Notes under the pieces: generated by a model
What the model was told of the DNA's origin: nothing
What the model saw: the letters and a program-made list of their open reading frames with translations, nothing else
Database searches by the model: none
Made by a program: the position numbers and the translations under genes
Assembly: GCA_902615915.1 (NCBI GenBank)
Contig: CACMQQ010000002.1
Span: 124,001 to 188,000, forward strand
Length of the DNA: 64,000 bases
DNA from: an uncultured Fidelibacterota bacterium
GTDB taxonomy: Bacteria; Fidelibacterota; Marinisomatia; Marinisomatales; TCS55
Direction: 5' to 3'
Part shown: positions 34,592 through 43,941 of the stretch, piece after piece
Layout of the letters: the number at the start of each line of letters is the position of its first letter
Numbering within the stretch: the first letter of the stretch is position 1

Positions 34592-35400
34592 TTTTTTAAG
34601 TATTTATTTATAAAATAAAAATGTGAACTTTTGGCATAATTATATAATTCTTTACCACTTAATTTTTTTGAAGCAGTGTGCGAATTGTGCTTGATCAATA
34701 AATATGGTATATAAAAAATTTTACATCCTACCTTCTTTGAAATTTCTGCAGTTGAGAGTTCCTCGCAAAATAGTTTAAAATTATCATCTAACCAGCCACC
34801 GCTATCAAAAAAATATTTTGAAAATATCATCGCTGATCCATGAATAGCGTAAACTTCTTGAGTTTTTTGGTTGTTATGATTTGATTTAAAGTTTTTAAAA
34901 CTTTTAAAAACTTTTAAAAAAATTGATATATAATATGATTTAAAAAATAGATTCCAATAAAATAATCTAAACTTGCTCATAGGTTTAATCATAAAAGGAT
35001 TGAGATTCTTATTTTTCTCATCAATAATTTTAGCTCCTATGACATGGTAGGTTTTACTATCTAGGCTATATAGTTTATTGAAAAAATTAACATCATCAAT
35101 TAATATATCATTATTACAAACAATTGTCCATTTTGCTTTTTTCTCTTTCAATTCTGCTAAGCTTTTTTTTATAGCTGGCCAGTAAAAATAGTTTTTTTTA
35201 AAAGGGACAATTAGTGTTTTTAAGCTTGAATTAATTACAATTTTATTTAATTCATTATAAGATTTTTTCGTTGATTCATTATCAATAATAACAACAAATA
35301 CGCTTTCTGAATTTTCACATTTTTCAATAGAAGCTATTAAATCTCTTGTGGGATTGTGATTTTTAAAATTAACAGTAAGTACTAAGGTTTTTAATTTCAT
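34588..35400 (-). CDS. Glycosyltransferase family 2 (rhamnosyltransferase-like)
   Basis: About 270 residues, GT-A fold. It has TLVLTVNFKNHNPTRDLIASIEKC at the N-terminus, VIDNEST, WTIVCNNDILI (the DxD-like metal region), and the later AIHGSAMIFSK and FKLFCEELSTAE motif with Glu-Glu. The start is the ATG at 35400 (MKLKTLVLT), which overlaps the wzy TGA by 4 nt; a GTG 36 nt upstream would add an unrelated tail. It transfers a sugar to the lipid-linked repeat unit. Confidence 0.85.
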   Translation of the reverse strand: MKLKTLVLTVNFKNHNPTRDLIASIEKCENSESVFVVIIDNESTKKSYNELNKIVINSSLKTLIVPFKKNYFYWPAIKKSLAELKEKKAKWTIVCNNDILIDDVNFFNKLYSLDSKTYHVIGAKIIDEKNKNLNPFMIKPMSKFRLFYWNLFFKSYYISIFLKVFKSFKNFKSNHNNQKTQEVYAIHGSAMIFSKYFFDSGGWLDDNFKLFCEELSTAEISKKVGCKIFYIPYLLIKHNSHTASKKLSGKELYNYAKSSHFYFINKYLKK

Positions 35401-36632
35401 ATTTTTAATTTTATTATAAAATATACTATCACCCACGAAAATAATATACTATTGTAATGAAATATGCTAATTAACGGAGAATAAATTGTGAATGAATAAA
35501 ATATTGACATTGGAATGAAGCCGTCAAAATTATTTTTTCTTTTTTTGTCAAATACTAATTGGAAAATTAGTCCAATGAAAAAAGAGATCAAAAGTGACCC
35601 GATAATAGAGAAATCGCTAACCAAAGCTCTCAATGCAGTAAAAATATTTGTTGAAACATCTTTATTTATATAAACAGGTAAATAAAAACCAAGTTCTCTT
35701 TCTGTTATATTTAACAAATTTAGAGGTCCTGCAAAAGTTGAAAATAACGTTTGTGGTGTAAATATTTTCTCATAACTGTCGAACCAAAGCGTAAATGCAG
35801 ACAAATATCCAAAAAGATATGCTTTCATCCTAAGGATTAAATAATCAAATACAATTGGATCTAAGCCTTGCCTAAGCCATTGAACAAACACAAATAAAAA
35901 TAAAAAAAACAACAAAGCAAAAAGTGAAGATAGAAAAATCTTATAACTGTGTATTTTTTCTTTAAAATTGAATTGATTATTTAAACCTGAAATAAAAGAA
36001 GAAAAAAATAAAATAAATCCAATTAATATGCTTGTTCTAGAGCCTTCCAAAATTCCAAGAGCTATGCATATTGCCAATGGTATAAAGCAAAGAAATTTAC
36101 TTTTGAACGTAACTTTAAAATTAGATAAAATGATTCCTGAGAGTAAAGCTCCAGGATATATTAAATATAGACTATATTTTATTAATATTGGATAATAAAG
36201 TTCTCCGCTATACCTATCAATAGATATTAAATTAGGAATTGATAATATCCCTGAGTAAGAAGAAAAACCTTCATAAATATTGATAGAGTAAATTAACAAT
36301 GAAATAATACCGCACATGCTGATAAAGTTTATGATTAAAAGTGATAGAAAGAAATTTTTGTAACCTATATTTTTATTTTTTAGTTGAATTATTGATTTTT
36401 TAAAAGTCACTTTAGTAGCAACTAAACTTCCACATGATAGCGTAATTACAAAAGTTGCTATATACCATATTCCATAAACTCCAATATTAAATTCAGATGC
36501 AAAAAGAATAGGAGTAACTAAAAAAAATAGCCAAAATAATGAAAAAAAAGCACCAGGGGAGTACCAAGTGCCAGTTGATTTTTTTGAAATAAGTGCTGAA
36601 AAAAAAACAATACCTAAAGGTAGATATAACAT
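35397..36632 (-). CDS. O-antigen repeat-unit polymerase (Wzy-like)
   Basis: A 411-residue polytopic membrane protein with about 12 hydrophobic helices and a larger periplasmic loop near residues 260-320 (FVQWLRQGLDPIVFDYLILRMKAYLFG). This topology fits oligosaccharide-repeat-unit polymerases, which lack conserved sequence motifs. The position directly after wzx and before a GT supports it. It would polymerise lipid-linked units at the periplasmic face under Wzz control. A second polymerase/ligase candidate is at 48803-50101. Confidence 0.78.
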   Translation of the reverse strand: MLYLPLGIVFFSALISKKSTGTWYSPGAFFSLFWLFFLVTPILFASEFNIGVYGIWYIATFVITLSCGSLVATKVTFKKSIIQLKNKNIGYKNFFLSLLIINFISMCGIISLLIYSINIYEGFSSYSGILSIPNLISIDRYSGELYYPILIKYSLYLIYPGALLSGIILSNFKVTFKSKFLCFIPLAICIALGILEGSRTSILIGFILFFSSFISGLNNQFNFKEKIHSYKIFLSSLFALLFFLFLFVFVQWLRQGLDPIVFDYLILRMKAYLFGYLSAFTLWFDSYEKIFTPQTLFSTFAGPLNLLNITERELGFYLPVYINKDVSTNIFTALRALVSDFSIIGSLLISFFIGLIFQLVFDKKRKNNFDGFIPMSIFYSFTIYSPLISIFHYNSILFSWVIVYFIIKLKI

Positions 36633-37913
36633 CTATAAAATAAATCTTTTATGATATAAATAATATATCAGACAAAAAAAGCAGTACGATGAAGCTGAAC
36701 ACAAAGATGTATAGGCAGTTGCTATGATGCCAAATTTTGGTAGAAAATAAATATTCCCTATCACATTGATTAACACTGAAAAAGATATAAATATTATCAT
36801 CATGTAAGTATTTTCTTTGAGTTCAATTATTTTATGTGCTAACAATGATAATTGCCATAAAACTCCTGTTAGAATTAAAATAGACATAACATCTATATAA
36901 TCCTTTGTTAAAACAGGTATAATAATTTTTATTAAACTGAAAACACTTTCCTTATAAAAAACTAAAATAAACAATGCTAAAAGTACAATTATGAAAATTA
37001 ATATTATGCTAATGTTTATTAAGATTAGTGCCTCTTTCTTCTTATCGTCATTCCAGAGTTTGGTTATTCTAGGATGTATTGCAAGGGTTAATGGGAGTAT
37101 TAAAAATGAAAAAGCTTTTGTTGTCAATTCGTTTAGACTTGAGTAAATACCTAAAGAGTTAAAATCTAGATATCTTATAATAAAATACCTATCCAAAAAA
37201 ATTAATAATAAACCAATGCTACCCCAAATTGATATAGGAATTCCAAAACTTAGCCATTTTTTCAAATCTGATTTTTCTTTAGATCTGTAAACAATACCAA
37301 AATAATTTCTATTTATTAAATAGGATATAATAGTAGAAATCGAAAAAGACACCCCTACAAAAAACAGTAAATTATTTGCATCTAAAACATAAAAATTGAT
37401 GAAAATAACAGGCAATCCAATTGCTAAAATTGATTGAACAATTGTTAAGAAGAAAACCTTCTTAGGCATAAGAACGCTTTGAAATATAGATTTCAAAAAG
37501 CTAAACAAACCAATTGAAAAAATGACAAAGAAAGCTAATATTAAGTTACTAGATGGAAAATTTTTTATAAAACTAAAAGCCAGTATAATCGGAAAAGATA
37601 TAAAAACACTTAATATAAAATATTGTTCATAAATGATTTTTTTTTGATTTGCATTTTCGATATTGCCGTATCGTATCTGAGATTGATTTAACCATCCAAA
37701 ACAAATAGCTGTAATTAGATTAAATTGTGATAAAAGATAGCTATATCGACCAAATTCTACCGCTCCCAACATTCTTATAAAAAATGTTAAGAAAATTAAA
37801 CCTATCAACGCTGGTATTATTTTTGAAAAAGCATAAATTAATATGTCAAAGATAATTATTTTTTTCTTTTTTATATTTAAAGAAAAATTCAAAAAAGACA
37901 TTTTTGTAATCAA
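36633..37913 (-). CDS. Wzx-type lipid-linked oligosaccharide flippase
   Basis: A 426-residue, 12-14 TM protein of the MOP/polysaccharide-transport family. The N-terminus IIPALIGLIFLTFFIRMLGAVEFGRYSYLLSQFN matches the typical Wzx opening helix and GxxEFGxYS motif. It flips undecaprenyl-PP-linked repeat units across the inner membrane. The start may be the TTG at 37913, which overlaps the wzz stop as TTGA, or the ATG at 37901. It is followed immediately by wzy. Confidence 0.88.
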   Translation of the reverse strand: MITKMSFLNFSLNIKKKKIIIFDILIYAFSKIIPALIGLIFLTFFIRMLGAVEFGRYSYLLSQFNLITAICFGWLNQSQIRYGNIENANQKKIIYEQYFILSVFISFPIILAFSFIKNFPSSNLILAFFVIFSIGLFSFLKSIFQSVLMPKKVFFLTIVQSILAIGLPVIFINFYVLDANNLLFFVGVSFSISTIISYLINRNYFGIVYRSKEKSDLKKWLSFGIPISIWGSIGLLLIFLDRYFIIRYLDFNSLGIYSSLNELTTKAFSFLILPLTLAIHPRITKLWNDDKKKEALILINISIILIFIIVLLALFILVFYKESVFSLIKIIIPVLTKDYIDVMSILILTGVLWQLSLLAHKIIELKENTYMMIIFISFSVLINVIGNIYFLPKFGIIATAYTSLCSASSYCFFCLIYYLYHKRFIL

Positions 37914-39151
37914 ATGTATTTTTCTTTAAAATGTATTATAAAAATTGAAATCATTACTCCAATTATAAAAGACATTAAAATACTTAGGGCTCTTCTAGGG
38001 CTAGTAAGTTTTGTTGGAAAACTTGGACCGTCAATTTGTTGAATCATGTCGTCCCTACCTATTTCATCAATTTTAGCTTTTTCATATTGAGTTTTTAATG
38101 TAACATATAAGCTGTTTTGTAAGTCTACTTCTCTTCCCATTTCCTGAACCTTCATTTGCAATGAAGGGGAAGTTGATAAATTTCTATTATTTTCTCTGAA
38201 AAGTCTCAATTCTTTTTCCATTTCTTTCATTTCTGTAGAAACTTGATCTAACCTTTCTTCAATAAATTGTCTTTTTTGTCTAATTCTTTTTGTTTTAAGC
38301 TCTCTTTGTTTTGAGCTAGAATTTTGAATTAGTTCCCTTGCTAATTCCGAAGCAAATTTTGGCTCAAAACCATCTACATCAATATTTATAATTGAAGATG
38401 AGCGATCTTTGCTAATTTTTATCATTTGCTTTAACTTGTCGACAACTCTATTTTTTCTATCTTGTTTTTCAAATTTTGACAATCTATGCTCATATATCAA
38501 AATATTTTCTAAAGTTTCATTTTTATATTTTAAAGTTAAAAAACTTTTTTCTAACATTGATTCAAGCAGTGCGCCGCTTTTTAAAATTTCTGGATAAATT
38601 TCATCCCATGGAACTTTTCCTCCTATATTGAGAGGAATATTTATGCCTAATTGACTAGCAAAACCAGAAAAGCTATTTGATGTGTTTCCATTTTCTGAGA
38701 TTGGTAACACTTTAGATTTTGACGTATATACTGGTTTAGATACATAAAAAACAAAAATTGTTGTTAAAAATGTTGTTAATAATGGTAATAAAAAAATTAT
38801 AGCTAAGTTCTGTTTCAGAAGTTTAAAAAAGCTGTTCCATTTGTATACTATTTCTTCTTCATTTTTTTCTCTAGAAATGCCCTCCTTTTTTTGCAATAAT
38901 TCAGTTTGTCCTTTATTAATATTTTCATTATTAATTTCTAATTCATATTTCATTATATGCTTTGAAGGAATTTCACCAGATTTAATCCAACCTGACAATG
39001 TTTGAGGTGTAACATTAAAATATTTTGCTACTTGATAATTTCTTCTAAATCCAAAATGCTTCATTATATCCAATACAACTTCTTCTGCATTCTGAGTTTT
39101 ATTATTTTTTTTATTTATATTAATTATTGAAACCCTTTTATTTAATTCCAT
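37910..39151 (-). CDS. Wzz chain-length determinant fused to an N-terminal HTH domain
   Basis: About 413 residues (ATG at 39151; a TTG 15 nt upstream is possible). Residues about 22-72 form a CI-repressor-type helix-turn-helix (EEVVLDIMKHFGFRRNYQVA then YFNVTPQTLSGWIKSGEIPS). A charged linker leads to TM1 (about 114-137) and a periplasmic Wzz region with SKSKVLPISE, PWDEIYPEILKSG and a long coiled coil (about 260-360). A Pro-rich PTKLTSPRRALSIL precedes TM2 (about 387-408). No BY-kinase domain follows. Wzz controls polymer length; the DNA-binding module would face the cytoplasm. The frame is continuous, so this is a real fusion. It overlaps the propeller gene by 14 nt and the wzx start by 4 nt. 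Confidence 0.88.
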   Translation of the reverse strand: MELNKRVSIININKKNNKTQNAEEVVLDIMKHFGFRRNYQVAKYFNVTPQTLSGWIKSGEIPSKHIMKYELEINNENINKGQTELLQKKEGISREKNEEEIVYKWNSFFKLLKQNLAIIFLLPLLTTFLTTIFVFYVSKPVYTSKSKVLPISENGNTSNSFSGFASQLGINIPLNIGGKVPWDEIYPEILKSGALLESMLEKSFLTLKYKNETLENILIYEHRLSKFEKQDRKNRVVDKLKQMIKISKDRSSSIINIDVDGFEPKFASELARELIQNSSSKQRELKTKRIRQKRQFIEERLDQVSTEMKEMEKELRLFRENNRNLSTSPSLQMKVQEMGREVDLQNSLYVTLKTQYEKAKIDEIGRDDMIQQIDGPSFPTKLTSPRRALSILMSFIIGVMISIFIIHFKEKYI

Positions 39152-40337
39152 AGAGTATAATATCAAACAAGCTTGAATTATACGATTTAGTTGAGCCTAA
39201 TAAAATAATTTCACCATTGGGTTTTTCAAATATCGATGACCCCCAATCGTCATGGTCGTCTGTTCCAAAGGCTTGAGAATTTAATAGATTACCATTTGAA
39301 TCAATTTTTAATAAAAATATATCTGAATTTGTCTTATTTGAAATTTGATTTATTGTAGAGCCGACCAATAATAATTCATCATCATCTGTTACATGTAAAT
39401 TGAAATTATGATAGTCAAATGAGTTTGAATTGAATTTTTTTTGCCATTGGATATTACCTGCAGTATCCATTTTGATTACCCTGGGATTGTAACTATTTAC
39501 TTCGCTCGTAGAATTGATAGCGGTTACAATATAGACTTGATTATTTTTATTTGTTGATATGCTATAAGATGTTTCATTTATATCGCTTAAGTCAATTAAC
39601 TCTTTTTCCCATAATTTATTTCCATTTTTATCAGTTTTAATAATTAAAGCATTCTTGCTGCCTTTACTATACCTATCAATAGTAGCAACTATTAAAAAAC
39701 TTTCATCGTCTTGTTGAACAAAATCATTACCCCACTCGTGATTTGGAAAATCTTTATTTCCATATGCTTTTTGCCATATCAAATTGCCATTTACATCTAT
39801 TTTTAATAGGAAAATGTCGGTATTGCCTGACGATATTCCAGGACTGTTGGAGTGCCCTAAAATGCCGTACCCACCCTCTTTCAGTTCAATCACTGCACTG
39901 CCCACTTCCCACATTGATCCACCGTAATTTTTCTCCCATATAATTTGACCATGAAAATCTGTTTTTACCGCGTAAACTTGCTGTTCATTGCCAAAAGACC
40001 ATGAATAACCAACAAATAAAAAGCCTCCGTCTGATGTCGAAATGACATCTAAACCTTCAGAATTAGCATTCCCTCCAAAGGGTTTTTCCCATGATACAAA
40101 TCCATTATCATTAGTTTTTATAGCCCATAACTTCCTTTCTCCATCTATTTCTGGCTGTTGAGACCCGATGATTATTGTTCCATTATCAAATGGTGAATAA
40201 GTTGCGTTCCATCCATAATCATAACCTAATGTTCCGAAAATCCGATAATAAGAATTCTCAAAATTTTCTCTCCAATCATAGTTGGATCCAATATCATCGC
40301 ATGACAAAAAAATAATTAATAGAAATAAAATTTTCAT
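39138..40337 (-). CDS. Beta-propeller-like lipoprotein in the export operon
   Basis: A 399-residue protein with a lipoprotein signal (MKILFLLIIFLSC, Cys13 as lipobox). At least six repeats of about 50-60 residues follow, each with a core like D-I-F-L-L-K-I-D-x-N-G-N-x-x-W-x-K-x-Y-G; examples start IFLLKIDVNGNLIWQKAYG, YAVKTDFHGQIIWEKNYG and IIKTDKNGNKLWEK. The chain ends in the lone strand FDIILYGIK, which could close a propeller. No enzymatic motif is seen. It lies between wza (14 nt) and wzz (overlap), so a role in polysaccharide export is inferred. The family is known to me only as uncharacterised delta-60-like repeat proteins. Confidence 0.75.
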   Translation of the reverse strand: MKILFLLIIFLSCDDIGSNYDWRENFENSYYRIFGTLGYDYGWNATYSPFDNGTIIIGSQQPEIDGERKLWAIKTNDNGFVSWEKPFGGNANSEGLDVISTSDGGFLFVGYSWSFGNEQQVYAVKTDFHGQIIWEKNYGGSMWEVGSAVIELKEGGYGILGHSNSPGISSGNTDIFLLKIDVNGNLIWQKAYGNKDFPNHEWGNDFVQQDDESFLIVATIDRYSKGSKNALIIKTDKNGNKLWEKELIDLSDINETSYSISTNKNNQVYIVTAINSTSEVNSYNPRVIKMDTAGNIQWQKKFNSNSFDYHNFNLHVTDDDELLLVGSTINQISNKTNSDIFLLKIDSNGNLLNSQAFGTDDHDDWGSSIFEKPNGEIILLGSTKSYNSSLFDIILYGIK

Positions 40338-40351
40338 ATCGATATTAAAGT

Positions 40352-42241
40352 TTATTGAGAAGTTGAGTTAGCCAAAATAGCAATTGTTACCAAGGAAGAA
40401 ATTAATGAACTGAACTGCTGAAACCTGTCAGGTTTTACATCTAATTGGTTTGACGGTTTTTCACTAACGATTATTTTACTTCCTGGAGATAGATACTTTC
40501 TGCTATTGACTTTAATTCTATATGCTTCTCCATATGGTTCGATATACGTAACATGTTTTTTATCACCATAAGCTGTTAATCCTCCTGACAATTCAATATA
40601 TTCTTTAGCAGTTCTATCTTCTATCCATTGAATACTTCCCGGATTATGAACAGAGCCTTCAATTGTAACTGTGGCATTTACTGAATTTACAATGATGGAA
40701 TCCTCGGGTGTTAAAAGTATATTGCCATCAGAGGATCCAATAATTAAGGAGTCTCTTTTTATGATTAAGCTTGAGAGGCTAGAAAAACCTACTAATCCCC
40801 CAGCCCTTTCAATTAAGGTATTTAATGTTTCATTATTTCTTATTAGTGGATAATTACCAGGAGAACTAATGTAGCCGCCTATGTACACAGTGCTAATTTT
40901 ATTATAAGCATTGTAGAGCTGTATTGAAATAAAATCATATGGCTCAAAACTAAAGTCAATTTTATCAAAACCATTAAGCAAGTATGTTTCATAATTTATA
41001 TCATCAACTCTTCTAACAATTTCAATTTTTTTAATATTGGATACATTAATATTTCCAAAATCAAAAATATCTTCAAAAGTTAAATTATTAATCCAAGGTA
41101 TATCGAAGGGTTGTCTATTATCTATAGATATAGAAATGTTTTTAGGATTTATATTTTTTAATGGGACAACAAGGCTATCACCATTTAATAGGGTAATTTC
41201 GTCATAATTGTTTTCACTGACATGTAGGTTAAAACCATTGTTTCTATATAAATAAGTCTTATTTAAAGCATTGCGATCTTTGCCTCCAGAATAGTTCATA
41301 ATGGTTTTAATATTGTCATTTTTTAATTCATAAAAACCTGGCATCCTAACAGAGCCGGTTATGGATATCGTTTCACCCTTAGCTGGTACGACCAAATAAT
41401 CACCATCAGACAAATTAAAGCTATCAAAAGAGAAACTTTGTCCACTGATGATTGGGTATAAATCCAAAGAATCAATAGTTACACCATTTCTAATCAAATA
41501 AATTGATCTTAGTGAACCTGTGGTATTAATACCACCAGCAAGAATTATTACATTAAGAACGTTAATTGATGGACTAACAATATAGTTACCTGGAAACTTA
41601 ACATGTCCAGAAATATTGATATTAATATTTTTGACTGAACCAACAGAGATGTTTACAAAAGTTAATTGGGGTTTGGAATTAATAGTTGAATAAACTTTAG
41701 AAAATTTATCATTAACATACGATTTTGCTTCGGCAAGTGTCTTACCTGAAAGAAAAAGCAAGCCAACATTAGAAACATACACAGATCCATCACGTTGAAT
41801 AATTAATTTTTCATATTGTTCTACTTGGCCCCAAACAGAAATTATTACTTCATCTCCGAATCCTAAAACATAATTAGGTGTAATTTTTAAATTATCTAAA
41901 AAATTGATAGAATCACGTAGTGAAAAATAATTGTAACCAAAATCAACTAAAGTAGCAGTACTATCAATTTGAAATAATAGCTTAGACAATTTATTCATTT
42001 CAAATTTTAAAGATTTTATTTTTTCATTATAATACGAATCAATATCAGAAGGAGTTACTAACAACTTAACCGGCCCAACTTCACTTGATTCCATTTCGAT
42101 GCCTTCTTTAACTATATTATTTGCTTGTTGATCAATTTTTATTTTATCATATGTTTCCATGAATTTTTTTAATTCGTCCGGTGATTGAGCATTTAAAAAT
42201 GTGAAAAAAATAAGGTATAATATTAATTTAATTCGGTTCAT
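40352..42241 (-). CDS. Polysaccharide export outer-membrane protein Wza (SLBB repeats)
   Basis: A 629-residue secreted protein with a signal peptide (LILYLIFFTFLNA). The Poly_export domain is at about 125-205 (YVLGFGDEVIISVWGQVEQYEKLIIQRDG as the opening). Several SLBB repeats follow (for example GHVKFPGNYIVSPSINVLNVI, GSVRMPGFYELKND, GYISSPGNYPLIRN, GSVHNPGSIQWIED). The C-terminal hydrophobic stretch (FQQFSSLISSLVTIAILAN) may anchor it. It forms the outer-membrane channel for capsule or O-polymer export. It is longer than E. coli Wza (about 380 residues), like Bacteroidetes-type exporters with extra SLBBs. A candidate promoter lies upstream. Confidence 0.92.
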   Translation of the reverse strand: MNRIKLILYLIFFTFLNAQSPDELKKFMETYDKIKIDQQANNIVKEGIEMESSEVGPVKLLVTPSDIDSYYNEKIKSLKFEMNKLSKLLFQIDSTATLVDFGYNYFSLRDSINFLDNLKITPNYVLGFGDEVIISVWGQVEQYEKLIIQRDGSVYVSNVGLLFLSGKTLAEAKSYVNDKFSKVYSTINSKPQLTFVNISVGSVKNININISGHVKFPGNYIVSPSINVLNVIILAGGINTTGSLRSIYLIRNGVTIDSLDLYPIISGQSFSFDSFNLSDGDYLVVPAKGETISITGSVRMPGFYELKNDNIKTIMNYSGGKDRNALNKTYLYRNNGFNLHVSENNYDEITLLNGDSLVVPLKNINPKNISISIDNRQPFDIPWINNLTFEDIFDFGNINVSNIKKIEIVRRVDDINYETYLLNGFDKIDFSFEPYDFISIQLYNAYNKISTVYIGGYISSPGNYPLIRNNETLNTLIERAGGLVGFSSLSSLIIKRDSLIIGSSDGNILLTPEDSIIVNSVNATVTIEGSVHNPGSIQWIEDRTAKEYIELSGGLTAYGDKKHVTYIEPYGEAYRIKVNSRKYLSPGSKIIVSEKPSNQLDVKPDRFQQFSSLISSLVTIAILANSTSQ

Positions 42242-42326
42242 GTGAATTTATTTCTATGTTTATTATATTAAATTTAAGCTATAATTTTTTTTAAAAAAAA
42301 AGATTAATATTTGATTTTTGTTCTAA

Positions 42327-42353
42327 ATTATATATAAAACGAATTTTTTTCAA
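42327..42353 (-). promoter_or_regulatory. Candidate promoter for the wza-propeller-wzz-wzx transcript
   Basis: On the minus strand TTGAAA (42353-42348) and TATAAT (42332-42327) are separated by 15 nt, in one of the two largest gaps (143 nt, 42242-42384) of the otherwise gap-free locus. It is about 85 nt upstream of the wza ATG. The 15-nt spacing is short and the DNA is AT-rich, so chance is a real alternative. Confidence 0.3.
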
Positions 42354-42384
42354 TTTTTTTAATTGATAAACCGAATAAAATTAA

Positions 42385-43941
42385 TTATTTAATGTTGATT
42401 GATTTAGATATCGAAAAAATTAGAGTTGTAATTAATCTAGTACCAGCAAGCTTTCCATCAGTAGAATCAACCGGATTGTTATTATTATCTACGTAGAAAT
42501 AATCTGGAAAACCTAAAAATGCTTCATATTGTTTTTCAAGATAGATACCATACCATGTATCATTGTAATTATATTTAGCTTCTAACGATAATTCAAATTT
42601 TACCTCAGCAGGTCTATGTGTCACTATCCCATGTCTTTCGTAATTAATTTTAGGTAGTATAATTAATTTATTAGATAAATATCCTAAGTATATTGTCCAA
42701 TCATCTGAGTCAGAACCTGAATGTGCACCCCATCTTCTTCCATAATATGTATTGAAATCATAATTATATTTGTTATACCATGTCCCTGAACCCGATGGTC
42801 TATGCCGCGATGAGTAGGTTGTCATTAGATTTGTCCATTCAAATCCCCATATCCAATTTTTATCTGAACCAATACCATAGTCTCTTATCCCAATTATTGT
42901 TGCCATACTATGGTCTGGCTGAGAAATTAAGTCAGCTAAGTACATCCTATTATCATTAAAGCCTAGTTCCATATATAGTTTTAGATTTCTCTTAGGCATG
43001 TTAAACGTAATGTATGTAGATATAGATTGATCCCAATAATCGTGACCACCTACAGTATATTCTTTCTTTAATAGATTATTTGTTAATAGACCCTCAAATA
43101 TAATTTTTCTTGCATCTGAAGCAGTCCATACGTAATTATTAATGGACATGCCTCCTGTAATATAATTTCTGCTAAATCCGAATGATATGTAAATTGGGCC
43201 ATACCAAGTAACTTGACCATTAAGGGCCGTATAATATATTGCATTAACACCTGTCTCTTCATTCAGTCTGCTAAAAGTATAGAGGCCGTATAAGCCTATA
43301 TTTTTTAATTTGATTTCATTTATTGTGCCAATTATTTGTGATGGCATTGGAGTTGTATTATTTGTCATTTGTAAAGTTGAATGAAAACCTGGCCCCCACC
43401 ATCTATTACCATCGTGCCATCCAAAACCAAAACCTTTATAATGAAAAAAAGCTAAAAAATTTCTAATGTTTTTATTGTTCCTTTTAAAGAAAAAATTTCT
43501 ATTCAACTTTCTGTCATTCAATACTTTAAATGTACCCTGACGATTTATATCTTTAGTGTCATAAAACTTTTCATTATAAATATAAGGCTCAATCATTAGT
43601 GAAAATAGCGGACTATTCAATGCCAGACTAAACGAATTAAATATTCCATATCCTTTAGAAAAATAGCGCAAATCCATATTCTCTTGATTTGGAGAATTAT
43701 TGTTTAGATAGCCTTCAGACAAAAAATTAAAATTTATTGACAAGGAATCTGTCGTGAAAAAAATGGGTCTAAAGCTATTTGAAATAAATGGAATCTTGTT
43801 ATCGTATTGATATTTTTCATTTAAAAAAATATAATTAGGATCTGCTGGCAAGAAGTTTTGCGAAAATAGAAAATTGAGAAAATATAAAATAAAAATATTA
43901 CTTATATAAAAAATTGGTTTAAATATTTGACGAGTAATCAC
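42385..43941 (-). CDS. Capsule assembly Wzi-family outer-membrane protein
   Basis: A 518-residue protein with a GTG start, an N-terminal hydrophobic signal (IFILYFLNFLFS) and a beta-barrel body. The Wzi family signature is clear near residue 180: WHDGNRWWGPGFHSTLQMTN followed by NTTPMPSQIIG. It ends in an aromatic/hydrophobic strand (LITTLIFSISKSINIK). Wzi-type proteins bind exported polymer at the outer membrane and support capsule attachment. It lies between the WecA-like transferase gene and wza. Confidence 0.85.
   Translation of the reverse strand: MITRQIFKPIFYISNIFILYFLNFLFSQNFLPADPNYIFLNEKYQYDNKIPFISNSFRPIFFTTDSLSINFNFLSEGYLNNNSPNQENMDLRYFSKGYGIFNSFSLALNSPLFSLMIEPYIYNEKFYDTKDINRQGTFKVLNDRKLNRNFFFKRNNKNIRNFLAFFHYKGFGFGWHDGNRWWGPGFHSTLQMTNNTTPMPSQIIGTINEIKLKNIGLYGLYTFSRLNEETGVNAIYYTALNGQVTWYGPIYISFGFSRNYITGGMSINNYVWTASDARKIIFEGLLTNNLLKKEYTVGGHDYWDQSISTYITFNMPKRNLKLYMELGFNDNRMYLADLISQPDHSMATIIGIRDYGIGSDKNWIWGFEWTNLMTTYSSRHRPSGSGTWYNKYNYDFNTYYGRRWGAHSGSDSDDWTIYLGYLSNKLIILPKINYERHGIVTHRPAEVKFELSLEAKYNYNDTWYGIYLEKQYEAFLGFPDYFYVDNNNNPVDSTDGKLAGTRLITTLIFSISKSINIK

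Follow-up and report, generated by a model that had tools for sequence, protein, structure and literature searches.

A CI/Cro-type helix-turn-helix domain on Wzz co-polymerases of Marinimicrobia: a candidate membrane-anchored autoregulator of polysaccharide operons

In marine bacteria of the phylum Marinimicrobia, some Wzz-type polysaccharide co-polymerases, membrane proteins that determine how long a surface sugar polymer becomes, carry a CI/Cro-type helix-turn-helix (HTH) domain in front of their first transmembrane (TM) helix. One of them is encoded in the window, by which we refer to the whole stretch of 64,000 nucleotides from the source genome (G000) analysed here, and further fusions are found across the phylum, where some of their operons hold a palindromic candidate operator at the start of the wza gene. 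On balance, we favour the reading that the fusion protein, HTH-Wzz, is a membrane-anchored autoregulator, probably a repressor, with an operator in the polysaccharide operon that encodes it; both DNA binding by the HTH and repression are what we infer from sequence comparison. With a conserved HTH and, for some copies, a palindrome at the start of their own gene cluster, these proteins raise the possibility that the genes of an assembly machine are controlled by the machine itself.

Results

An HTH domain and a Wzz co-polymerase share one reading frame

Positions 37910-39151 of the minus strand form a single uninterrupted frame of 413 amino acids counted from ATG; an alternative in-frame TTG start at 39166 would give 418 amino acids. 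The first-pass annotation had proposed that a CI-type HTH is joined here in one frame to a Wzz protein with two TM helices, and the uninterrupted frame together with the Pfam matches bears this out. The protein matches Wzz (PF02706) with 34.9 bits (cutoff 25.5) and GNVR (PF13807) with 31.1 bits (cutoff 27.7), and its N-terminal 101 residues, searched by themselves, match Phage_CI_repr over residues 27-73 with 24.2 bits (cutoff 22) and HTH_17 with 24.5 bits, below the cutoff of 27. For the full-length protein the Phage_CI_repr score is 21.6 bits, slightly below the cutoff of 22. Searched in all six frames with Phage_CI_repr, the whole 1.8-Mb genome gave two matches, of 26.4 and 23.9 bits, both in Wzz proteins, the second being the HTH of the window; the HTH thus scores above the cutoff of 22 both as an N-terminal fragment and in the genome-wide search. 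The Pfam scan of the protein detected no tyrosine kinase domain. The features of the gene are as follows (class A is one of two HTH classes described below):

37910..39151, minus strand: hth-wzz, class A, 413 aa; cytoplasmic HTH, linker and Wzz/GNVR polysaccharide co-polymerase
38930..39088, minus strand: CI/Cro-type HTH domain, residues 22-74 (Phage_CI_repr, AlphaFold2, class A identity)
38978..39007, minus strand: predicted recognition helix, residues 49-58, PQTLSGWIKS (AlphaFold2 helix 49-58)
38828..38929, minus strand: variable linker between HTH and Wzz, residues 75-108 (class A identity, dN/dS, pLDDT)
38549..38827, minus strand: Wzz domain, residues 109-201 (PF02706, 34.9 bits)
38741..38806, minus strand: predicted TM helix 1, residues 116-137 (AlphaFold2 helix within the Wzz Pfam match)
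37925..38149, minus strand: GNVR domain, residues 335-409, with predicted TM helix 2, residues 387-412 (PF13807, AlphaFold2)

An AlphaFold2 model built from a 40-row alignment reached a mean pLDDT of 87, with values of 93-97 for the HTH helices and below 50 in the linker at residues 87-98. In agreement with the two TM helices expected for the Wzz part, TM-like helices are predicted at residues 116-137 and 387-412, flanking a predicted periplasmic alpha/beta domain with a long helix (264-321), so that a DNA-binding-type domain and TM helices are combined in one chain. Both the N- and the C-terminus of Wzz-type proteins are cytoplasmic. In Foldseek searches, the full-length model matches Wzc, WzzE and KpsE with E-values of 1e-8 to 1e-12. 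The best folds for the HTH-only model are N15 Cro, free and with operator DNA (probability 0.97-0.99), and 186 CI also matches (0.98); the E-values for these are weak (0.05-0.2, best 0.05) because the model is small. Profile searches of the HTH against PDB sequences gave LexA-like, Cro, CI and LacI matches, and those against PHROGs were mostly transcription regulators; RodZ was not seen among the PDB profile and fold matches listed. The structure prediction recommended by the first-pass annotation thus yielded confident helices in a repressor-like fold.

The gene lies in a conserved polysaccharide locus

The locus is of the Wzx/Wzy type, with wzi, wza, wzx-like and glycosyltransferase genes assigned by Pfam and wzy by position only. 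The neighbours of hth-wzz are:

35397..36632, minus strand: multi-TM protein, wzy-like by position and appearance only (no Pfam match)
36633..37913, minus strand: wzx-like flippase gene, downstream of hth-wzz (Polysacc_synt, 63.9 bits)
39138..40337, minus strand: 399-aa putative lipoprotein with propeller-like repeats, overlapping the hth-wzz start by 14 nt
40352..42241, minus strand: wza-like outer-membrane export gene (Poly_export 42.9 bits, SLBB 72.9 bits)
42242..42384, minus strand: gap upstream of wza, no significant operator-like match
42385..43941, minus strand: wzi-like gene for capsule assembly, preceding wza (Caps_assemb_Wzi, 32.9 bits)

Wherever class A loci are assembled, the order is fixed as wza, 400-aa lipoprotein, hth-wzz, wzx-like flippase, multi-TM protein and glycosyltransferase. 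The multi-TM gene has an equivalent position in G093, G106, G145 and G158, the wzi-like gene in G096, and a lipoprotein of the 399-aa type directly precedes hth-wzz in each class A locus assembled that far. This lipoprotein has no match in a Pfam search and might be a factor of export or assembly that has not been described. More generally, wherever the context is assembled, HTH-Wzz genes are found beside or close to wza or other genes for polysaccharides. A separate tyrosine kinase was considered as a partner of HTH-Wzz and rejected, the source genome (87% complete) giving no match to TIGR01007 above cutoff.

HTH-Wzz fusions recur in the phylum with two classes of HTH

A Wzz search of the source genome returned two genes, that of the window and one at C2:226960, which begins with MNFIEFEKIMTKLGLNSLAEIARYLNTTPQAVSNWKSRDQVPN and comes after a wza-like SLBB gene. 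Across the phylum, the search for other fusions that the first-pass annotation had called for found HTH-Wzz in 15 of 245 genomes (at least 17 genes, in ten genera and five families), and the protein is therefore not a one-off. A frame-shift or assembly artefact can be ruled out as the origin of the fusion, given its presence in 15 genomes and its two copies in the source genome. The HTHs fall into two classes that share 17-30% identity: class A (GFRRNYQVAEYF-VTPQTLSGWIK), which includes the protein of the window, and class B (LAxIAREL-VSPQAVSNWKAR), to which the second operon of G000 belongs. The majority of the phylum's Wzz proteins carry no HTH, and some near relatives start at the linker (e.g. 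L012, L013).

In a tree of the HTH, which rests on only 58 columns, class A is nested within a clade of soluble HTH-coiled-coil-PAS proteins (support 95/85) and class B forms a separate clade (98/94). On the tree of the Wzz domain the HTH label takes four changes, at least two of them forced by well supported branches. The existence of two classes together with these two trees suggests that Wzz acquired an HTH at least twice in the phylum, and the class A HTH appears to derive from soluble HTH-PAS proteins resembling transcription factors. Identical or near-identical HTH-Wzz operons occur in genomes of different families (L005/L006 in G106 and G145, L057/L008 in G106 and G158); the class A copies of G145 and G158 may therefore reflect recent transfer or mis-binned contigs. 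A plasmid origin of the fusion was also considered, and a tblastn search with the first 200 aa of a class B fusion gave no match among plasmids. A single scan of other phyla returned Wzz relatives in which, within the reach of its narrow patterns, no HTH was detected. Like the first-pass annotation, which knew of no described HTH-Wzz protein, our literature search, of partial coverage, found none.

The HTH is the best-conserved part of class A proteins

Between pairs of class A proteins, identity is 73-90% in the HTH, 41-78% in the Wzz part and 0-29% in the linker. At the sequence level the HTH is therefore the best-conserved part of class A and the linker nearly unconstrained. Correspondingly, dN/dS is ~0.05-0.21 for the HTH and ~0.3-1.1 for the linker, for pairs with finite, non-zero dS and with dS near saturation for several of them, which indicates that the HTH is subject to purifying selection. 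Occurrence of the architecture in 15 of 245 genomes and this selection on the HTH together argue against a chance fusion.

In five independent class A proteins, residues 33-57 are invariant except for 43, 46 and 47, and residues 48-57, which cover most of the predicted recognition helix, are invariant throughout. The invariant residues of class B are, in the numbering of the window protein, R43, P49, Q50, N54, W55, K56, R58 and P62. The first-pass annotation had named two outcomes that would speak against it, a profile search without significance for the HTH and a recognition helix that varies among orthologues; given the profile scores and the residues conserved in both classes, we found neither.

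A palindrome marks the wza start of several class B operons

The wza starts of the second G000 operon and of the G082 operon share the sequence TACAC-N5-GTGTA, first spotted by eye. In its extended form, RTACAC-N5-GTGTAY, the palindrome has 47 sites across the 245 genomes. Inspection of ~1.5 kb on both sides of each site found a wza-like gene at only four of the 47, namely in the class B HTH-Wzz operons of G000, G082, G060 and G061, which represent three lineages (the second operon of G000; G082; G060/G061). The G000 site, the sole one of its genome, is:

G000:C2:229438-229454: GTACACTTAAGGTGTAC in AATGTACAC-TTAAG-GTGTACATT, 9-bp arms, where wza begins in the second HTH-Wzz operon (same site as L126:2039-2055 and L182:1501-1517)

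It overlaps the wza frame, near the contig end, and in G082 one of the two sites of the genome sits immediately before the wza ATG; both positions would suit repression. In G060 (one of two sites) and G061 (the sole site), the palindrome lies ~93 bp upstream of wza, inside the terminal part of the upstream coding ORF. As these two sites played no part in defining the palindrome, they are, as a sequence match, an independent confirmation of it at class B wza genes. By a rough estimate, the chance of finding a site of such density within 200 bases before a class B wza is ~1e-4, and in the upstream regions (at least 350 bases) of nine wza genes of HTH-less loci the best matches have 3-4 mismatches.

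In G070 and G125 the class B operons are without the palindrome, and those of G080 and G081 contain weak partial forms with two mismatches (15 of 300 shuffles as good) and three mismatches (106 of 300), respectively; the palindrome is therefore not universal in class B operons as judged from their sequences. It could instead be the site of another regulator. Two further occurrences were noted. The site in G016 lies within a gene adjoining an HTH-less Wzz-like gene, without wza, and L200 (G101:C35:1-4700) contains ATACAC-N5-GTGTAT three times in a 2.3-kb span close to genes for small membrane proteins, a density far above chance. Downstream of HTH-Wzz in G082, L064:5484-6110 encodes a protein with a NusG domain (70.7 bits), which resembles UpxY by position and might be a dedicated antiterminator of that polysaccharide locus.

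The class A operon of the window and a related HTH-PAS family

The region upstream of wza in the window (42242-42384), put forward by the first-pass annotation as the target of the HTH, contains no significant match to either of two candidate operators. RTACAC-N5-GTGTAY has no match at the window's class A operon. The other candidate, the element ACTTGAATAATATTA of the HTH-PAS genes, was rejected as the operator of this operon, as it has no match in the G000 genome at up to one mismatch and matches the wza upstream region no better than shuffles do. In G093 and G096 the wza start offers a 12/15 match to this element, a weak hint given that 20-31 of 300 shuffles are as good. Among inverted repeats common to class A wza starts, only GAATA/TATTC was found, in two genomes of the same genus, and this candidate was set aside. 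The proposal that HTH-Wzz acts on its own locus thus gains from the palindrome at class B wza starts, where the sequence is consistent with it, and finds no support in the target region named in the window; presumably the class A protein of the window uses an operator differing from the class B palindrome.

The HTH-PAS element belongs to a family (L043-L056, e.g. L048:3022-3714 and L054:2995-3705) of soluble proteins with a class A-like HTH, a coiled coil and a PAS domain (PAS_3, 27.0 bits), typically encoded once per genome beside envelope-like genes. Directly before the start of most HTH-PAS genes lies a conserved inverted repeat, ACTTGAATAATATTA ... TTATTCAAGT. The exact 15-mer is present at the promoter in ten of the 11 tested genomes with the gene, G095 having a one-mismatch form, and it is absent from G000, where the HTH-PAS gene was not found. 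From this arrangement, the family is probably an autoregulated transcription factor. A second HTH family of 211-218 aa (L114:2563-3195, L115:559-1197, L116:2908-3561, L117:2572-3204) matches Phage_CI_repr with 23.4 bits in L114 and has a C-terminal half of PAS-like look without a Pfam match. In G199, the product of L123:902-1525 joins an excisionase-like HTH to a sequence resembling a response-regulator receiver.

Discussion

In the mechanism we envisage, a cytoplasmic CI/Cro-type HTH on the flexible tether of a two-TM co-polymerase would bind DNA, the linker allowing the membrane-bound heads to reach an operator at their own polysaccharide operon, with autoregulation, probably repression, as the outcome. 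Because Wzz-type proteins form rings, about eight HTH heads would be clustered in each, and ring assembly or disassembly could then change DNA binding and feed the state of polymer assembly back to gene expression; that the assembly state serves as the signal is speculative. A bolder version, in which the co-polymerase is itself a transcription factor whose ring assembly, lumen filling or disassembly directly switches the operon, with at least two origins using different HTHs and operators, we offer only tentatively.

The main rival takes its lead from RodZ, a bitopic membrane protein whose cytoplasmic end is an XRE-type HTH that binds MreB and itself instead of DNA (PMC6946637). By analogy, the HTH of HTH-Wzz would be a protein-protein module docking the co-polymerase to a cytosolic partner such as the cytoskeleton, a glycosyltransferase or a scaffold, without DNA contact. 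Both are membrane proteins of envelope synthesis with an N-terminal cytoplasmic XRE-type HTH, the class A HTH is conserved with no operator found for it, and since the genome has no tyrosine kinase above cutoff, another cytosolic control may be needed. We nevertheless regard this reading as unlikely, given that the conserved positions include those of the recognition helix (48-51, 53-54 and 57), that the closest relatives in sequence and fold are DNA-binding repressors, with RodZ not among the matches listed, that the class B palindrome is operon-specific, and that the class A HTH seems to stem from soluble HTH-PAS proteins resembling transcription factors.

DNA binding might also serve chiefly as an anchor that holds the polysaccharide machine at the chromosome or at its own locus, and have little influence on transcription. 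Membrane location and an unstructured linker would suit such positioning or transertion-like coupling, and G000 and G061 each hold a single palindrome site, at the operon itself; the sites at the wza start of G082 and G000, however, occupy a position that usually affects expression, and we consider mere tethering quite improbable. Least credible of all is that domain shuffling left the HTH behind as a passive by-product that now serves no purpose. The HTH is missing from the majority of Wzz proteins in the phylum and has apparently been gained and/or lost several times; yet it seems to have been acquired independently in the same place, and its dN/dS of ~0.05-0.21 against ~0.3-1.1 in the linker (finite dS, several pairs near saturation) is hard to reconcile with a domain that has no function.

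How does the proposed autoregulator compare with known systems? With Wzz and GNVR domains, a pair of TM helices and a fold that matches WzzE, Wzc and KpsE, it resembles Wzz/PCP-1 proteins (WzzE, WzzB), in which an octamer of WzzE surrounds one WzyE in its lumen (PMC10030265). Wzz proteins are, however, described as having no cytoplasmic domain (PMC10030265), a PCP-1 trait from which the protein of the window departs with ~100 residues, including the ~50-aa HTH, before TM1. It resembles Wzc (PCP-2a) in being a co-polymerase with a cytosolic control module, which in Wzc is a C-terminal tyrosine kinase and here an N-terminal HTH. The closest functional analogue is CpsA of group B Streptococcus, a polysaccharide-assembly protein of the membrane whose N-terminus binds its own capsule promoter (PMC8875755); this LCP-family protein comes from a Gram-positive bacterium and has a LytR-CpsA-Psr ligase domain in place of Wzz. 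Membrane-bound one-component regulators as such are already known: the transmembrane transcription regulators (TTRs; CadC, ToxR, TcpP) are described as widespread in the available text of a survey, which makes no mention there of an architecture like HTH-Wzz (PMC10269533). As in TTRs, a DNA-binding domain and a TM helix share one polypeptide that could act on promoters; in HTH-Wzz, however, the DNA-binding domain is of the CI/Cro type, and the remainder is a biosynthetic co-polymerase with two TM helices, not a dedicated sensor. What seems to be new is this CI/Cro-type, DNA-binding-type head on a biosynthetic Wzz co-polymerase.

Whether the assembly of Wzz rings alters as the polymer grows is debated, and, to our knowledge, there is little explanation of how cells adjust polysaccharide gene expression to what the polymerisation machine is doing. 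If our preferred reading of HTH-Wzz as an autoregulator is correct, the DNA-binding head of the co-polymerase would make the state of the ring readable as transcription, and the question of ring assembly could be reduced to a simple reporter assay. Membrane-bound transcription regulators would thereby come to include a biosynthetic component, and this in a phylum for which we know of hardly any genetics.
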